A stretch of DNA of 37,522 bases from a virus. The notes under the pieces are model-generated. The model ran no database searches. It was not told the origin of the DNA and was given only the letters and a program-made list of their open reading frames with translations. Below are positions 1,006 to 36,466 of the stretch, piece after piece (position 1 is the first letter of the stretch; each line of letters starts with the position of its first letter). The DNA lies in IMG/VR virus record IMGVR_UViG_3300048586_000889, positions 1-37,522 of that record. One strand, 5' to 3'. The position numbers and the translations under genes are program-made.

Positions 1006-1046
1006 TATACACCGACTATAGACACGGCCGATAGTCGGTGTATAAT
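1006..1046 (+). promoter_or_regulatory. Promoter overlapped by a perfect 14-bp inverted repeat operator
   Basis: TAGACA (1019-1024) and a consensus TATAAT (1041-1046) are separated by 16 bp and form a strong sigma-70 type promoter. A perfect inverted repeat, TATACACCGACTAT (1006-1019) and its complement (1031-1044), surrounds the spacer and covers both boxes. A dimeric repressor bound there should block polymerase. Transcription would begin near 1053, at the ATG at 1054, which implies a leaderless mRNA. The box matches are visible; repression is inferred. Confidence 0.75.
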
Positions 1047-1053
1047 TAGACGC

Positions 1054-1560
1054 ATGAAGCAATTCGCTTCGGACGGTAAATGCGAACCGATTCAATCGCA
1101 CCAACTGAAAGCACGCGTGATGCCCAGTTACAACCTCACCCCTATCTACGCGACCAAGCTTGTTCGAGAAGGCTCGATCAAGACTCGCCCCGCAGCCCTC
1201 AACGGTTCCGACCAGGCGAAGGCCGCTTGCATCGAGTTCCTCAAGGATTCTCCTTGCGAGCAATTCGTTGTGGTGCTCCTCGATACTCAACTGCGAGTGA
1301 TCGGCTTGGCACCGATCACCGTCGGGACCCTCGACGCGAGCTTGGTCCACCCTCGCGAATGCTTCCGCCCTGCGATCTTGGCGAATGCCTCGGCCGTGAT
1401 CCTCGCCCACAACCACCCATCGGGACTACTCACCCCGAGCCGCGAAGACCTCGCGGTAACCGAACGACTCACCAACGCCGGTGAGCTCCTCGGGATCCGA
1501 GTCCTCGATAGCATCATCGTCAACGACGAAGAGGCTTACTCGCTGAACGCGAGAGGATAA
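1054..1560 (+). CDS. RadC-like JAB/JAMM domain protein
   Basis: 168 aa protein matching the C-terminal RadC (MPN+/JAB) domain that is common on mobile elements. The metal-binding motif is clear: H119-N-H121-P-S-G followed by PSREDL with D132, plus an upstream glutamate at about E102. The helix-hairpin-helix found in full chromosomal RadC is absent; instead there is a short N-terminal extension of about 45 residues. The family is named for DNA repair, but its real activity is unsettled, and many mobile-element copies sit in anti-restriction or stabilisation clusters. I chose the ATG at 1054 because it lies exactly where the promoter would start transcription; an in-frame ATG at 994 lies upstream of the promoter. 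It is first in an operon with the RHH and DUF1874-like genes, with a hairpin terminator between. Confidence 0.85.
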   Translation: MKQFASDGKCEPIQSHQLKARVMPSYNLTPIYATKLVREGSIKTRPAALNGSDQAKAACIEFLKDSPCEQFVVVLLDTQLRVIGLAPITVGTLDASLVHPRECFRPAILANASAVILAHNHPSGLLTPSREDLAVTERLTNAGELLGIRVLDSIIVNDEEAYSLNARG

Positions 1561-1573
1561 CCCGCACACCACA

Positions 1574-1602
1574 CGCCCCGCTCGAAAGAGCGGGGCGCTT
1601 TT
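1574..1602 (+). terminator. Rho-independent terminator or attenuator after the radC-like gene
   Basis: A perfect 10-bp GC-rich stem (CGCCCCGCTC, loop GAAA, GAGCGGGGCG) is followed by CTTTT. It begins 14 bases after the RadC-like stop codon and lies 16 bases before the next start, so it probably lowers rather than abolishes expression of the downstream genes unless they have another promoter. Confidence 0.85.
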
Positions 1603-1617
1603 CGAAAGGTAACCAAC

Positions 1618-1821
1618 ATGGCAGCCGGAGAAGACAAACAGTTCCGCTGGTCACAATCCATCCCAGAGGATTGGCTACCGTACCTCGACGACCTGGCCGA
1701 CAAAGCCGGGAAGACTCGCGTCGGGTTCGTTCGCGATCTCATCCGCGAAGCGATCCCAACCAAATACCGCACCAAGCTATCTGCACCGCAATCGGCCGGA
1801 AGGCCCAAGAAGGACGAATAA
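1618..1821 (+). CDS. Small ribbon-helix-helix (CopG/Arc-like) protein
   Basis: 67 aa. The N-terminal half reads as a beta strand (FRWSQSIP, residues 9-16) followed by two helices (about 17-30 and 33-46), ending in FVRDLIREAI. This is the ribbon-helix-helix pattern of CopG, Arc and antitoxin regulators. The last 20 residues are basic and probably disordered (ending GRPKKDE). An AAAGGT Shine-Dalgarno-like stretch precedes the ATG. The stop is followed after one base by the start of the DUF1874-like gene, so the two are translationally linked. The inferred role is transcriptional regulator of this operon, possibly through the inverted repeat at 1006-1044, or an antitoxin-like partner. No toxin-like neighbour is recognised. 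Confidence 0.65.
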   Translation: MAAGEDKQFRWSQSIPEDWLPYLDDLADKAGKTRVGFVRDLIREAIPTKYRTKLSAPQSAGRPKKDE

Positions 1822-1822
1822 C

Positions 1823-2173
1823 ATGCTCTACCTTATCGCTCGCCCTATGCCGATGCCGGTCGGGAGATTCGACGTCTCCTTGATCTCTCCCGATTTGCTC
1901 CGTCAATTGATCCTCCATGCTCGCGATGCGAACGAGCTCGACTCGCGGGTTCACTTCGCATCAACGGTTCAGATCCTATCGAGCCTCACCGGGATCGCCC
2001 TGCAGCCTGGAAATGACCAGCTCGCCCCCGATCTCGAGAACGGCGATTGTGTGATCGATATTCGCCTGAAGCCAGATACCCCCAAGGGAAGGCGCATCAC
2101 GATTGATGACTTGGACTTTTACAGGATCGAATACAGCACGGCCGACGAATCACGCCCCATGATGTTCAGGTAA
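1823..2173 (+). CDS. DUF1874-like protein (AcrIII-1 / STIV B116 family), candidate anti-CRISPR
   Basis: 116 aa. The whole length follows the DUF1874 layout: MLYLI start, a short variable helix region, SRVHFASTVQILSSLTG (41-57) where the family has S-x-x-GHxxTxxLSxLLG, then a VIDIRLKP strand (77-84) and TPKGRRITIDDLD (86-98) where the family has RLPEGKVLTxEEL. DUF1874 includes the viral ring nuclease AcrIII-1, which destroys cyclic tetra-adenylate and so disables type III CRISPR immunity. The catalytic His of GHxxT is not at the expected column: F45 occupies it and H44 stands one position earlier. The glycine of the P-x-G turn is kept, while charged residues I recall as catalytic nearby are not obviously conserved. 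It may therefore bind a cyclic nucleotide without cutting it, or use shifted residues. The family call is from motif memory, not a search. Confidence 0.6.
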   Translation: MLYLIARPMPMPVGRFDVSLISPDLLRQLILHARDANELDSRVHFASTVQILSSLTGIALQPGNDQLAPDLENGDCVIDIRLKPDTPKGRRITIDDLDFYRIEYSTADESRPMMFR

Positions 2174-27739: not shown

Positions 27740-27948
27740 CGCAGGAGAGTCTCGCTAAGGGCAAACCGCTCCATCGGTGCAACCGTCGTCCATGCTCGTA
27801 GCAGCCTATCGAAAAATGATCTTTCTGTGCAAGGTGTTATTAGTGAAGAAAGGTTCGAGAAGATTTGACTGTGTGACAAGACTTGGTCAACATGTTGCTC
27901 CCACTCATGCTTTCACAACTGGCAAATCCAGAATGTAGGATCCCCGAA

Positions 27949-28851
27949 ATGGAAATCACTAATTTCCCGATCAAACCCGATGGACGCGCCTCTATATGGC
28001 GTTACCTAGATCTCCCCAGGTTTTTGTCGCTAGTCTCGACCAGAAGGCTCTTTCTTCCGAGTGTTACGACGCTGCAGAGGATTGATCCATTTGAAGGAAC
28101 GTTGTCAGAAGCGGAGATAAACGAACAAAAGGAATTCTTCAAGCGTTTCTTACAATGGACGAACGAGGAAGAGAACGGTTCAGACGATGACCTTCGGAGA
28201 GGGTTACTTGACTACAACGCTTCTTTCAAATCGATGCAAGAAAACTTGGAGTTCATTGCAGCCTGGACGTTTATCTCGTGCTGGCACGCTAAGTCAAACG
28301 AATGCGACCTGATGTGGAAATCTTACGGAGCCATGATCGCGATCAAGTCAACAGTAGAAGCGTTAGAAGCCGAATTGAGTTCGGGTTTAAAATTATTCTG
28401 TAACGCCCGCCCCCCGAATGAACCCGAACTTAACGTTGGTTTTGTTCGCTACATGAACTTCGCGAAAGAAAGGATACCCTCGTACAGTTTCGGATCATAT
28501 TTTTGCAAACGCGAAAACTTCGCATCAGAGAACGAGATAAGGGCTGTCATCTCAGCAGTCCCGTATGTTGCGGATCCAAGTGGTAGGCACATGTTTGCTG
28601 GGATCGAACCTAGTAAATTCGAGCTTGACCGCAATAAGCAGTCACTTCCTGGACTGTCTATTTCCGTTAATCTCGAGAACCTAATCCAAGAAGTAGTCGT
28701 TTCCCCAGCAGCGCCCCAATGGTTCTACGAGACCTTGCTCGCCTCGTTATCACAAATGCAAATAGGCACCATAGCCTCCAGAGTCAGTCACTCTGTTCTG
28801 AAAAAGATTCCTCCCCTACTGTTCGATGAGGCTTGCCCTCCATTTGCTTGA
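27949..28851 (+). CDS. DUF2971-like protein, + strand cargo gene
   Basis: 300 aa from the ATG at 27949, chosen because AGGA lies eight bases upstream and the preceding in-frame codons (from an ATG at 27892) do not match the family. Residues 16-50 (IWRYLDLPRFLSLVSTRRLF, LPSVTTLQRIDPFEG) are the DUF2971 start: strand, helix and a LxxPFEG turn. The rest (ISCWHAKSNECDLMWKSYG; EIRAVISAVPYVAD) continues the family pattern. DUF2971 proteins occur near defence and mobile loci; activity is not established. It is the only + strand gene between 2.2 and 37.5 kb, is more AT-rich than its neighbours, and its 3' end overlaps the end of the opposing gene by 68 bases. Strong candidate moron with its own promoter in the 209-base gap upstream. 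Confidence 0.68.
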   Translation: MEITNFPIKPDGRASIWRYLDLPRFLSLVSTRRLFLPSVTTLQRIDPFEGTLSEAEINEQKEFFKRFLQWTNEEENGSDDDLRRGLLDYNASFKSMQENLEFIAAWTFISCWHAKSNECDLMWKSYGAMIAIKSTVEALEAELSSGLKLFCNARPPNEPELNVGFVRYMNFAKERIPSYSFGSYFCKRENFASENEIRAVISAVPYVADPSGRHMFAGIEPSKFELDRNKQSLPGLSISVNLENLIQEVVVSPAAPQWFYETLLASLSQMQIGTIASRVSHSVLKKIPPLLFDEACPPFA

Positions 28852-31229: not shown

Positions 31230-31230
31230 A

Positions 31231-31341
31231 GGACCAGGCGGGAGTCGAACCCGCACGAATGCTACCCTCAGGAGGCCATCCCCTACTCTCGCATCACACT
31301 ACCGCCTTGTGGGCGGCGCTCTACCATTGAGCTACTGGCTC
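31231..31341 (-). tRNA. tRNA-like gene with a very long variable region (anticodon unclear)
   Basis: The 5' half is standard: acceptor GAGCCAG, TA, D arm GCTC-AATGGTA-GAGC. The 3' half is standard: T arm GCGGG-TTCGACT-CCCGC, acceptor CTGGTCC (six of seven pairs, one A.C and one G.U). Between them lie 63 bases where 23 are normal, that is, 40 extra. An anticodon-like hairpin GCCGC-CCACAAG-GCGGT follows the D arm, but its loop has C at position 33 and no usual anticodon (ACA). The extra bases hold a second stem GATGC...GCATT. It could be a class II-like tRNA with a giant variable arm, a tRNA containing an insertion, or a decayed tRNA. The CCA end is not encoded. Amino acid not assigned. Confidence 0.6.
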
Positions 31342-33634: not shown

Positions 33635-34129
33635 CTAAACAGGCTTCTCCTTCGACTTGCTCGCGTCCCTCTTGGCGGCGGCAGGTGCGTAGAATTGTCT
33701 CGCGAAGTATCCATGCTCCGCATCAATCAGTCGTTCGTACTCCTCATCGGGTGGAATCGCCAGGCATTCGCTTCGCTTCACCTTTTCAACGGTCTCACGA
33801 ATGGCCTCCAAATTGCGAGCCCCCATTCCGGGAATGCTGAGCAGTTGCTCGTCGGTGGCTTGATCAACAGAACGCAAGATCTCGAACCGTTCGCTCTCAA
33901 GCATGCCGGCGATCCGAGCCCCAAAAACCGTGCTCACGTGATTGTCGAGCGTCGCAAGGCCGGGATTGGCCTCAACGATGAATCGAGCGAGAACGCGATG
34001 CGCTGCCTCGATCGATCCTCGCAGAATTCGAACCTGCATCTCTCGGCAAGCAATGCTCCACCGAGCCGAATCCCATTGGGCGAGCAGATCGCCGAAATCC
34101 TTTTGAGGTTGCTGTTGAGCTGCATTCAT
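33635..34129 (-). CDS. Helix-hairpin-helix DNA-binding protein
   Basis: 164 aa. TDEQLLSIPGMGARNLEAIR (92-111) is a helix-hairpin-helix motif with the usual I-P-G-x-G turn, as in DNA repair and recombination proteins. The N-terminal part (about 10-70) is helical with REMQVRILRGSIEAAHRVLA. The gene overlaps the downstream recombinase-side gene (34126) by four bases (ATGA), so the two are co-translated. A role with the adjacent recombinase, as accessory DNA-bending or recombination factor, is reasonable but inferred. Confidence 0.68.
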   Translation of the reverse strand: MNAAQQQPQKDFGDLLAQWDSARWSIACREMQVRILRGSIEAAHRVLARFIVEANPGLATLDNHVSTVFGARIAGMLESERFEILRSVDQATDEQLLSIPGMGARNLEAIRETVEKVKRSECLAIPPDEEYERLIDAEHGYFARQFYAPAAAKRDASKSKEKPV

Positions 34130-35226
34130 GTCGCGAGCCTCGTTAGAAGTGAATCTTCGACACTCAAATAGTTCCGACGGGCGACCGTCGCAGAGTGACC
34201 CAGCAAGAGCCCTGCTTGCTGCGGAGTGATCGAGGGATCGGCAGCCAGCTGATTAGCCCGAGTCGCTCGGAATGCGTTGTAGGGTGGCTGCCATTGCGGG
34301 ACCCCGACGCGATCGCGGAGCTCATAGAGCCAGTCGTAACAGGTATGCTCGGTGATCCGCGTTAGGACGCGATCGCTCGGGGATCTCCCGTGGAGGAGCT
34401 CGGGGAGGTAGATTGCGATCGCAGGATAGATCGGATTGACTCGTTGGCGATCGTTCTTCGTCTCGGTGAAGATGATTCGCGATCGCGAGAGATCGAAATC
34501 ACCCACTCGCAAGGAAAGCCCTTCTCGCAGCCGGCAGCCGGTACACTGCACGAGTCGGAGCCAATACCGCTCCTCCGTCGTCTTGCAAGATCGCACCATC
34601 TGATCAATCCATTCCGCCTGAACTTCGTCTTTCGATTTGCTACCGATGGACTTGTCGAGCTCATCGCATGGATTGCGGGGAATGGATTTGCGTTTGTCGC
34701 GAAGCCATGTAAAGAATGCCGCCCAGTTCTTCGCGTGCCTTGCGAGCGTGTTGGGTGCATAGCCGTGCTCATCGGCGAGCTCGGAAAGGAGATCCTCCAA
34801 GATGCCTCGATCGATACGGGTTACATCCGACGGGCATCGCAGCTTGAGTCGCTCGACGTCATGCATCACCTGCGAGTCCGTGTTGGCACTCGTGCCGAGC
34901 TCTTGGCGATAGGCTTCGTACTCGTCGATCGATTCATGTAAGCTCACCGCTTGCCGCGTGACAAACTGGGGGTCATCGGCGAGCAATCTCGTGAGGAGAT
35001 AGGCCCGCTGCTTGGTGGGCAATGCTTCGACCCATTCGAGAGTCGATCGCAAATGCTCGGTCTCGCTACGGTGCGCTGTCAGGATCGACTCGATCTGACG
35101 TTTGGTCGTCGACCACTCGCGATCGCTCAAGCGAAACCGCTTGAAGCTCAACGTATCTTGCACGCCCGATTTAGGACCGAGCAAATGGCGAAATCGAATC
35201 TGTCGCTCTGAGTCATCGGCATGCAT
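34126..35226 (-). CDS. Second tyrosine recombinase (Xer/integrase-like)
   Basis: 366 aa from the ATG at 35226; an ATG at 35310 would overlap the GNAT gene deeply. A SAM-like domain (about 130-185, with YEAYRQELG) is followed by the catalytic domain: R232 in TGCRLREGL, K257 in ETKNDRQ, N317-x-x-R320 in YNAFRATRA, H344 in GHSATVARRNY and nucleophile Y353. The first histidine of the HxxR pair is Asn. Some active members tolerate this position. It lies on the early strand next to an HhH protein and a GNAT-like gene, far from the first integrase (1-882). Candidate resolvase or integrase of the phage; which copy is native is not decided. Confidence 0.82.
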   Translation of the reverse strand: MHADDSERQIRFRHLLGPKSGVQDTLSFKRFRLSDREWSTTKRQIESILTAHRSETEHLRSTLEWVEALPTKQRAYLLTRLLADDPQFVTRQAVSLHESIDEYEAYRQELGTSANTDSQVMHDVERLKLRCPSDVTRIDRGILEDLLSELADEHGYAPNTLARHAKNWAAFFTWLRDKRKSIPRNPCDELDKSIGSKSKDEVQAEWIDQMVRSCKTTEERYWLRLVQCTGCRLREGLSLRVGDFDLSRSRIIFTETKNDRQRVNPIYPAIAIYLPELLHGRSPSDRVLTRITEHTCYDWLYELRDRVGVPQWQPPYNAFRATRANQLAADPSITPQQAGLLLGHSATVARRNYLSVEDSLLTRLAT

Positions 35227-35707
35227 CACCAATCTCCGAATCCGTTCGAGAAATCTTCCGGAATGAAAAGACGTCCACCGGCCCGTGAATAACCGGAGGC
35301 GCGAAATCAAACTTTCTTAGGAGGTCTCGCCACTGCACATTCGCAGGAGACGAAAAAGCGGCGACTCTCTGAGGTGAGTAACGGCTCATGTACCAAAACA
35401 GAAGGTGATACTTGAGGGTAAGGCAATCAGAAGCGAGTGGGTGAATCAGTGGCTCGAAGATGATTCCATGCCAGCGAGTTTCGGTGATGTTCATATATCC
35501 CACCACTCCGTTGTTTCGGCATTCCACGACAGCAACCGCTTCGGGGGAGCAATCCATCAACAACCTCAGGCGGCGAGCTATCAGAAACATAAGCTTCCGG
35601 GTTCGCCTTGACGAAACATAGTGCATGCCAATCGCATTGAGACTTACGACATCCGAGCCAGTCGCGAGCCGAATCAATCCGCCTGGTGGTTCAATTTCAA
35701 GCGCCAT
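35213..35707 (-). CDS. GNAT-like acetyltransferase
   Basis: 164 aa from the ATG at 35707, with GGAG upstream, inside the end of the csrA-like gene. IRLATGSDVVSLNAIG, the A-V-A-V-V-E-C-R-N-N-G-V-V-G-Y-M strand pair and the following LIHPLASDCLTLKYHLLFWY resemble a GNAT fold; a clean R/Q-x-x-G-x-G/A acetyl-CoA loop is not seen, so activity is doubtful. Its 3' end overlaps the recombinase start by 14 bases. The sequence upstream of the ATG is shadow of csrA. Family call is tentative. Confidence 0.52.
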   Translation of the reverse strand: MALEIEPPGGLIRLATGSDVVSLNAIGMHYVSSRRTRKLMFLIARRLRLLMDCSPEAVAVVECRNNGVVGYMNITETRWHGIIFEPLIHPLASDCLTLKYHLLFWYMSRYSPQRVAAFSSPANVQWRDLLRKFDFAPPVIHGPVDVFSFRKISRTDSEIGDACR

Positions 35708-36116
35708 AACGCGACGCTCCTTCCGTGTGCAGATCATTGACCACGTCCATGGAAACCATCGCAGTCTCATCGCTCTGCGTTTTAGCCATCGAAACCAAGC
35801 CGGAGACCATGACGATTGAAGCAGCATGCTCCAAATCGCAACCCATAAACTTCGCGACATCAGCTATCTCTCGGTAGCGATCGTCGGGAAGAGTCACCAT
35901 GATCGATTTCATTTGTGATGGTGCGCGTTTGAAATCGCGACCATGCTCGCGATCGATCGCTCTTTGCACCTCTTCGCGATGCACGGTCACATCGCGAGGC
36001 GCCTCGATGCCGATTCGCACCTTGTCACCGCGAATGTCGACGATCAACACTTCCACTTCGAGCGAGTCCTTCGTAATGATGATGGACTGGTCCCGATGTC
36101 TAGATAGAACTAGCAA
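35697..36116 (-). CDS. csrA: CsrA-like RNA-binding regulator with an extra C-terminal domain
   Basis: 139 aa; CsrA proteins are normally about 60. Residues 1-58 are a clear CsrA: MLVLSRHRDQSIIIT, then VLIVDIRGDKVRIGIEAPRD and VTVHREEVQRAIDRE with L4, R6 and the V45-H46-R47-E48 RNA-binding edge. CsrA binds GGA in mRNA leaders. Residues about 66-139 add a second domain: SIMVTLPDDRYREIADVAKF and CDLEHAASIVMVSGLVSMAK, helical and like a ribbon-helix-helix or dimerising region. A TTG start at 36116 has GGAGG six bases upstream; GGA in its own ribosome site allows autoregulation. Phage CsrA homologues are rare; this may redirect host translation. Confidence 0.85.
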   Translation of the reverse strand: MLVLSRHRDQSIIITKDSLEVEVLIVDIRGDKVRIGIEAPRDVTVHREEVQRAIDREHGRDFKRAPSQMKSIMVTLPDDRYREIADVAKFMGCDLEHAASIVMVSGLVSMAKTQSDETAMVSMDVVNDLHTEGASRYGA

Positions 36117-36189: not shown

Positions 36190-36367
36190 CCACATAGCGG
36201 GGCTTGTGGTCCGCAGGCTTCTGCTTTGGTCGGCTGTCTCCCTGCGGTCTACAGCTCAGCAAACCTCCCACCCATGGGACACCATGGATAAGCCCCTCTC
36301 AGGTATGAAACGCCCCCGGTGCGCGTCGCAGGTCACGCCCGAAATCCTGCTAACGCACCGAGAGCAA

Positions 36368-36466
36368 CACGCTGGCAGGACTCGAACCTGCAACACCCGG
36401 ATTTCCTCTCGCGGAAGATCCAACGCGAGAGAAAAGCCGGTGCTCTACCAGTTGAGCTACAGCGTG
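36368..36466 (-). tRNA. tRNA-like gene with a hairpin insertion in the anticodon loop
   Basis: 99 bases. Acceptor CACGCTG/CAGCGTG pairs perfectly (7 bp). D arm GCTC-AACTGGTA-GAGC, T arm GCAGG-TTCGAGT-CCTGC and a five-base variable region (GTGTT) are standard. The anticodon stem CCGG/CCGG is intact but its loop is 34 bases, 27 more than normal. The extra part is mostly a perfect hairpin, CTCTCGCG-10 bases-CGCGAGAG (36406-36431). If the hairpin were removed the loop would be T-T-T-T plus a few A: depending on the cut, anticodon UUC (Glu), UUG (Gln), UGA or even UUA. CCA is not encoded. Identity therefore open: tRNA with a mini-intron-like insert, or tRNA mimic. Confidence 0.68.

Follow-up and report, generated by a model that had tools for sequence, protein, structure and literature searches.

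Gene content of the accessory insert

The DNA examined, referred to here as the window, is a whole 37,522-base virus record with genes for a terminase, portal, head protease and tape measure protein and for two integrases. Its portal protein is 25-26% identical to those of the nearest named phages among the matches listed, and assignment of the phage to a planctomycete host is unproven. Close to the start of the window lies an accessory insert, with the following genes and elements:

1003-1047 (no strand assigned): inverted repeat with 17-nt arms, 94% complementary, and an 11-nt spacer, overlapping the promoter
1019-1046 (+): sigma-70-like promoter upstream of radC, TAGACA-16-TATAAT, matching 11/12 consensus positions
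1054-1560 (+): RadC-like JAB/MPN-domain gene, the first of the insert (PF04002, E 3.1e-39; PHROG 10276, E 1.1e-39)
1574-1597 (+): hairpin between radC and the next gene, 10 bp, perfect, GC-rich, followed by a short T run
1618-1821 (+): ribbon-helix-helix (RHH)-like gene of 67 aa, with a weak NCBIfam match to the NikR N-terminus (E 0.00038)
1823-2173 (+): divergent DUF1874-like gene with replaced pocket residues, 116 aa, a complete open frame from ATG to TAA

Two sigma-70-like sites were found in this region against 0.4 expected. The inverted repeat is probably an operator, and the hairpin may act as a weak terminator or attenuator. The RHH-like protein, for which Pfam and PHROG returned no match, is probably a regulator or a co-expressed partner. 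In two related phages (G033 and G036), whose terminases are 67-68% identical to that of the window, the integrase directly abuts the minus-strand structural genes, and neither phage holds a homologue of radC, the RHH-like gene or the DUF1874-like gene. Since the insert is missing from both, the DUF1874-like gene is optional cargo. Accessory cargo sites of phages are often occupied by counter-defence genes, and we infer a link of the 116-aa protein to host defence.

We considered whether radC, the RHH-like gene and the DUF1874-like gene form a recurrent cassette and rejected this, as the trio did not recur in scans centred on any of its three members. No DUF1874 gene was present among 37 records scanned, 31 of them selected through radC, no radC-like gene was found in DUF1874 loci, and 42 other DUF1874 loci had no common upstream gene family. 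The RHH-like protein had no relatives in viral contigs.

The DUF1874-like gene is coding and under purifying selection

The 116-aa frame starts one base past the stop codon of the RHH-like gene and is preceded by an AAGGA-like ribosome-binding site. Its sole close homologue (L001, in IMGVR_UViG_3300048930_001420) is 92% identical at the amino acid level; no relatives beyond it were found in viral contigs, none in genome contigs, and nothing convincing in phages or plasmids, so the lineage of this protein is represented by two sequences. With only one other gene copy known, conservation could be assessed on a single pair, which gave dN 0.054, dS 0.402 and a dN/dS of about 0.13. The frame is thus a coding sequence under purifying selection, which argues against decay of the gene. 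The two proteins differ at nine residues (positions 17, 34, 36-38, 59-61 and 77), none of which falls in a pocket column of the family discussed below. Residues 39-58 and 78-116 are identical, and His44, Asp65, Asp85 and Lys88 are the same in both.

The 116-aa protein is a remote homologue of AcrIII-1 and Crn2

DUF1874 is known as a family of enzymes specific for cyclic tetra-adenylate (cA4), found in viruses and in type III CRISPR loci. The initial annotation had proposed that the 116-aa protein follows the layout of this family, and profile searches, alignments and a predicted structure all speak for that assignment. The only Pfam match at E≤10 was PF08960 (STIV_B116-like; E 0.0025, 18.4 bits), which places protein residues 12-99 on positions 13-96 of a 101-position profile. 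This score lies below the curated PF08960 cut-off of 26 bits, and since chance-looking matches of 17-20 bits arise in genome-wide scans, the Pfam score alone is insufficient for the claim. We therefore draw on a set of 87 distinct DUF1874 proteins gathered from phages, plasmids, viral contigs and genomes. Aligned to this set with hhalign, the two-sequence query scored 38.8 over 87 columns (87.9%), as compared with at most 21.0 in 150 shuffles, 11.3 for the reversed sequence and at most 20.8 across the other 183 open reading frames of the window, a collinear profile-profile similarity beyond chance. A plain HMM also ranked the protein above all 20,000 shuffles, narrowly (13.6 vs 12.1 bits), and the pairwise score against a canonical bacterial DUF1874 protein (L210) was 85, with a maximum of 51 among 2000 shuffles. 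Collinearity extends over nearly all of the protein.

In PADLOC, the sole match of the protein was to model PDLC01147, labelled Csx16 (E 0.019). The idea that Csx16 represents a second ring-nuclease family in this comparison was dropped, as PDLC01147 matches nearly all DUF1874 proteins tried; it recognises 15/16 members of one DUF1874 alignment (A1; best E 9.1e-21) and is therefore in effect a DUF1874 model. As a separate observation, Csx16 calls made by PDLC01147 in PADLOC-DB may be DUF1874 proteins of the AcrIII-1/Crn2 kind.

Neither outcome that the initial annotation named as refuting the assignment, a lack of any profile match or a different fold, was obtained: beside the profile matches above, structure prediction gave the DUF1874 fold. 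With the two sequences as input, AlphaFold2 failed to produce a usable model (pLDDT 38.9); with 32 DUF1874 relatives added to the alignment, it reached a pLDDT of 87.6 and a pTM of 0.77. Foldseek retrieved 17 PDB chains at E≤0.001 for this model, all 17 of them DUF1874 proteins. VIA-align Z scores were 12.8-13.3 against 8y7g, 6scf, 2j85, 8y7f, 2j6b and 2x4i and 9.3 against 8y6z, also a Csx1-Crn2 structure, and the best unrelated chain scored 3.1. Because DUF1874 relatives were in the alignment from which the model was built, it depends in part on the assignment under test and is best read as compatibility with the fold.

Taken by sequence comparison, then, the 116-aa protein is a remote homologue of DUF1874 (AcrIII-1/Crn2). 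That the similarity is a product of chance, with the structural match induced by the alignment, is in our estimation very improbable. Such a reading could point to the sub-threshold Pfam score, the poor two-sequence model and the best sequence match in the PDB, which had an E value of 1.5, but the hhalign and pairwise scores lie far outside the distributions for shuffled sequences and other open reading frames, query and family align collinearly almost from end to end, and AlphaFold2 reaches a confident prediction only when DUF1874 relatives are supplied.

The fold of the model is also resembled by uncharacterised proteins of the Erwinia jumbo phages phiEaH2 and Kwan (BFVD J7KCD4, A0A1B2IEC3, A0A1B2IEJ3 and A0A1B2IEG6), several of them in Kwan. 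A PF08960 search of phiEaH2 gave no match. Going by predicted structure, these proteins possibly constitute an unrecognised group with the DUF1874 fold.

The pocket network of the family is replaced throughout

We numbered family residues as in SIRV1. Where DUF1874 proteins have GHxxT, the 116-aa protein reads V43-H44-F45-A46-S47-T48, and this stretch was aligned without gaps by MAFFT, the family HMM, hhalign and BLASTP. All four place Phe45 in the column of the catalytic histidine and His44 in that of the preceding glycine, confirming the earlier reading that the histidine is replaced by phenylalanine with a histidine standing one residue before it. That reading had treated the change as an altered motif; the replacement of the histidine stands, but the loss extends well outside the motif.

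Across the 87 family members, His47, Arg66, Arg85 and Gly89 are invariant (87/87 each), followed by Gly46 (86/87), Glu88 (84/87), Asn8 (79/87) and Thr50 (79/87); some of these proteins were retrieved with GH-containing patterns, which biases the histidine and glycine counts and leaves those of arginine and glutamate unaffected. A sample collected by profile only, from 398 genomes of one phylum, yielded ten members above the cut-off, with Arg66 and Arg85 in 10/10, histidine in nine and tyrosine in one, a protein of a Bacillota prophage (L215). The 116-aa protein keeps none of the six pocket residues: Asn8 is replaced by A6 or a gap, Gly46 by H44, the catalytic His47 of AcrIII-1/Crn2 by F45, Arg66 by N64 or D65, Arg85 by D85, and Glu88 by K88. 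At two of these columns the charge is reversed, with aspartate for arginine and lysine for glutamate. Thr50 and Gly89 are the only strongly conserved residues of the family that are retained. Between residues 43 and 80 the protein contains no arginine or lysine, so Arg66 cannot be restored by local realignment.

The roles of these residues are taken from the description of AFV3-109 (PMC1796864). In that crystal structure, His45 contacts Arg64 and forms a hydrogen bond with Glu86 from the partner subunit, Arg83 links the two subunits, and Asn6 and Glu86 hold a bound glycerol (PMC1796864). The histidine is needed for the reaction, as the H495A variant of Csx1-Crn2 does not degrade cA4 (PMC7293037), and AcrIII-1 H47A is inactive while still binding cA4 with a KD of about 25 nM (PMC7213978). 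As this residue is required and is missing here, the alignments exclude cleavage of cA4 by the 116-aa protein through the canonical histidine mechanism of the family.

Comparison with known relatives

The viral AcrIII-1 proteins (SIRV1 gp29/ORF114, 2x4i and 6scf; STIV B116, 2j85; AFV3-109, 2j6b) are, like the 116-aa protein, small single-domain viral proteins, collinear with it over about 90 residues and similar in predicted fold (Z about 13). They differ from it in having the catalytic histidine and the pocket asparagine, glycine, two arginines and glutamate; the 116-aa protein is longer by two residues ahead of the GD turn and is 15-20% identical to them. Crn2 as found in the Marinitoga Csx1-Crn2 protein (8y7g) gave the top Z score for the predicted fold, 13.3, whereas the phage protein stands alone, is encoded outside a CRISPR locus, is unfused and lacks the active site. 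Nearest in sequence are the YddF-type bacterial DUF1874 proteins of prophages and integrative and conjugative elements (L210, L188 and L207-L213), which are collinear with it at about 26-28% identity and also reside on bacterial mobile elements. The YddF-type proteins examined keep the GH pair, Arg66 and Arg85, and most keep Glu88, all of which the 116-aa protein lacks.

The Bacillota prophage protein L215 (also L224; 2144-2479, minus strand, on contig C257 of G449, which also has terminase, primase and integrase genes) likewise lacks the catalytic histidine, with SRIGYPAT in place of the SRVHFAST of the 116-aa protein. Unlike the latter, it keeps Arg66, Arg85 and the pocket asparagine and scores 53 bits to PF08960. 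It had no relatives in viral contigs, and its phage matches were ordinary DUF1874 proteins.

The family had been described as best known from archaeal viruses. It does occur there, but many of its members come from bacteriophages, prophages and integrative elements (PMC12409355; PMC1796864), with AcrIII-1 in 36 of 28,114 phage genomes (PMC12409355). What is new here is a member under selection that lacks the whole pocket network; neither the presence of DUF1874 in bacteriophages nor a member without the histidine, such as L215, is unique to this locus. A protein that is selected for and keeps the scaffold with none of the pocket residues would establish the DUF1874 scaffold as reusable for other roles. 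It would also be a warning that activity can be overcalled when phage "anti-CRISPR ring nucleases" are annotated by fold or by a weak profile match.

A proposed binding role on a reused scaffold

We propose that a temperate tailed phage carries this remote AcrIII-1/Crn2 homologue as accessory cargo, with the DUF1874 scaffold kept and the pocket remodelled. The dimeric cradle of the family would most likely still form, and the protein does not cleave cA4 by the histidine mechanism of the family. It would instead act by binding, either to another nucleotide signal of host defence, as a sponge, or to a protein or nucleic-acid partner, and the data do not separate these two possibilities. The RHH-like protein encoded one base upstream is probably co-expressed with it, in an insert that appears to have its own operator-like promoter. 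A binding role on a reused scaffold is the most likely reading, which we hold with reasonable though far from full confidence; the ligand and an anti-CRISPR role are unproven. For the suggested action against type III CRISPR, the evidence is homology. The alternatives weighed below overlap in part with this broad reading, and our estimates of their likelihood are not additive to one.

A narrower form of the proposal is that a DUF1874 lineage of bacterial temperate phages lost its cA4-cleaving pocket and had it rebuilt for a different defence signal, giving a new sponge or decoy; we put this forward as a tentative possibility. By analogy, the phage sponges Tad1, Tad2, Acb2 and Acb4 could share its principle, namely that a defence signal is bound and left uncut, although our searches revealed no relation in sequence or fold between them and the 116-aa protein.

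The signal withheld could also be cA4 itself, with the dimer cradle sequestering it, uncut, from type III CRISPR effectors. The scaffold is conserved, sponge proteins are a known phage strategy (PMC11722364, PMC12043709), and the behaviour of AcrIII-1 H47A implies that loss of the histidine alone makes a sponge (PMC7213978). The initial annotation had suggested a sponge, and the loss of the histidine fits that idea, but the H47A picture of an otherwise intact pocket does not transfer to a protein in which the equivalents of Arg66, Arg85, Glu88 and Asn8 are replaced as well, two of them with reversed charge. Because the rest of the network is missing too, cA4 sponging is less likely than had been suggested; moreover, no type III CRISPR system could be linked to the host, and we regard this version as unlikely.

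We give a similarly low likelihood to a DNA-binding or regulatory protein that works with the upstream RHH-like protein and has nothing to do with cyclic nucleotides. The one-base spacing between the two genes and the operator-like palindrome over the promoter would suit such a role, and binding of double-stranded DNA has been reported for AFV3-109 (PMC1796864). Against it, the 116-aa protein has a net charge of -4, a hairpin intervenes downstream of radC and the palindrome could belong to radC only, and the partnership is not recurrent, with one weak RHH match upstream of the 42 other DUF1874 loci.

Still less probable is an enzyme, a ring nuclease or phosphodiesterase, with an active site rebuilt from His44, Lys88 or the aspartates and perhaps directed at another cyclic nucleotide. 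Consistent with this, a histidine immediately precedes the column of the lost one, and His44, Asp65, Asp85 and Lys88 are identical in both homologues; cA4 is also cleaved by Crn1, a ring nuclease of the CARF-domain type with an unrelated fold (PMC12409355). Yet the ungapped register puts His44 at the glycine position, at the start of a helix, rather than at the old histidine position, and the searches yielded no relative whose active site was intermediate. Finally, a toxin-antitoxin pair, with the RHH-like protein as antitoxin and the 116-aa protein as toxin, fits the usual antitoxin-first order and the one-base spacing but is highly improbable, as searches of Pfam, PADLOC and NCBIfam linked the 116-aa protein to no toxin family, its predicted fold is that of DUF1874 and not of a known toxin, and the RHH-like protein matches no antitoxin family.

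Other features of the phage genome

Elsewhere in the window, the gene at 27883-28851 (+) encodes a 322-aa protein that matches the PADLOC candidate-defence model PDC-S31 (E 3.7e-11), and no homologue of it was found in related phages. Two regions on the minus strand resemble tRNA genes. The one at 36367-36466 scores 52.4 bits against the Rfam tRNA model; its anticodon loop holds 31 nt, as compared with 4 in the model, the extra sequence apparently forming an extended hairpin; ARAGORN called no tRNA there, and related phages had no copy. The other, at 31230-31341, scores 40.6 bits against that model; its variable region carries an insert of ~44 nt, and its similarity to the sister phage is limited to a 25-nt end. 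The two integrases are different tyrosine-type enzymes on opposite strands (1-882, plus; 34126-35310, minus), and a CsrA-like phage regulator with a C-terminal extension is encoded at 35697-36116 on the minus strand (PF02599, E 7.4e-18).
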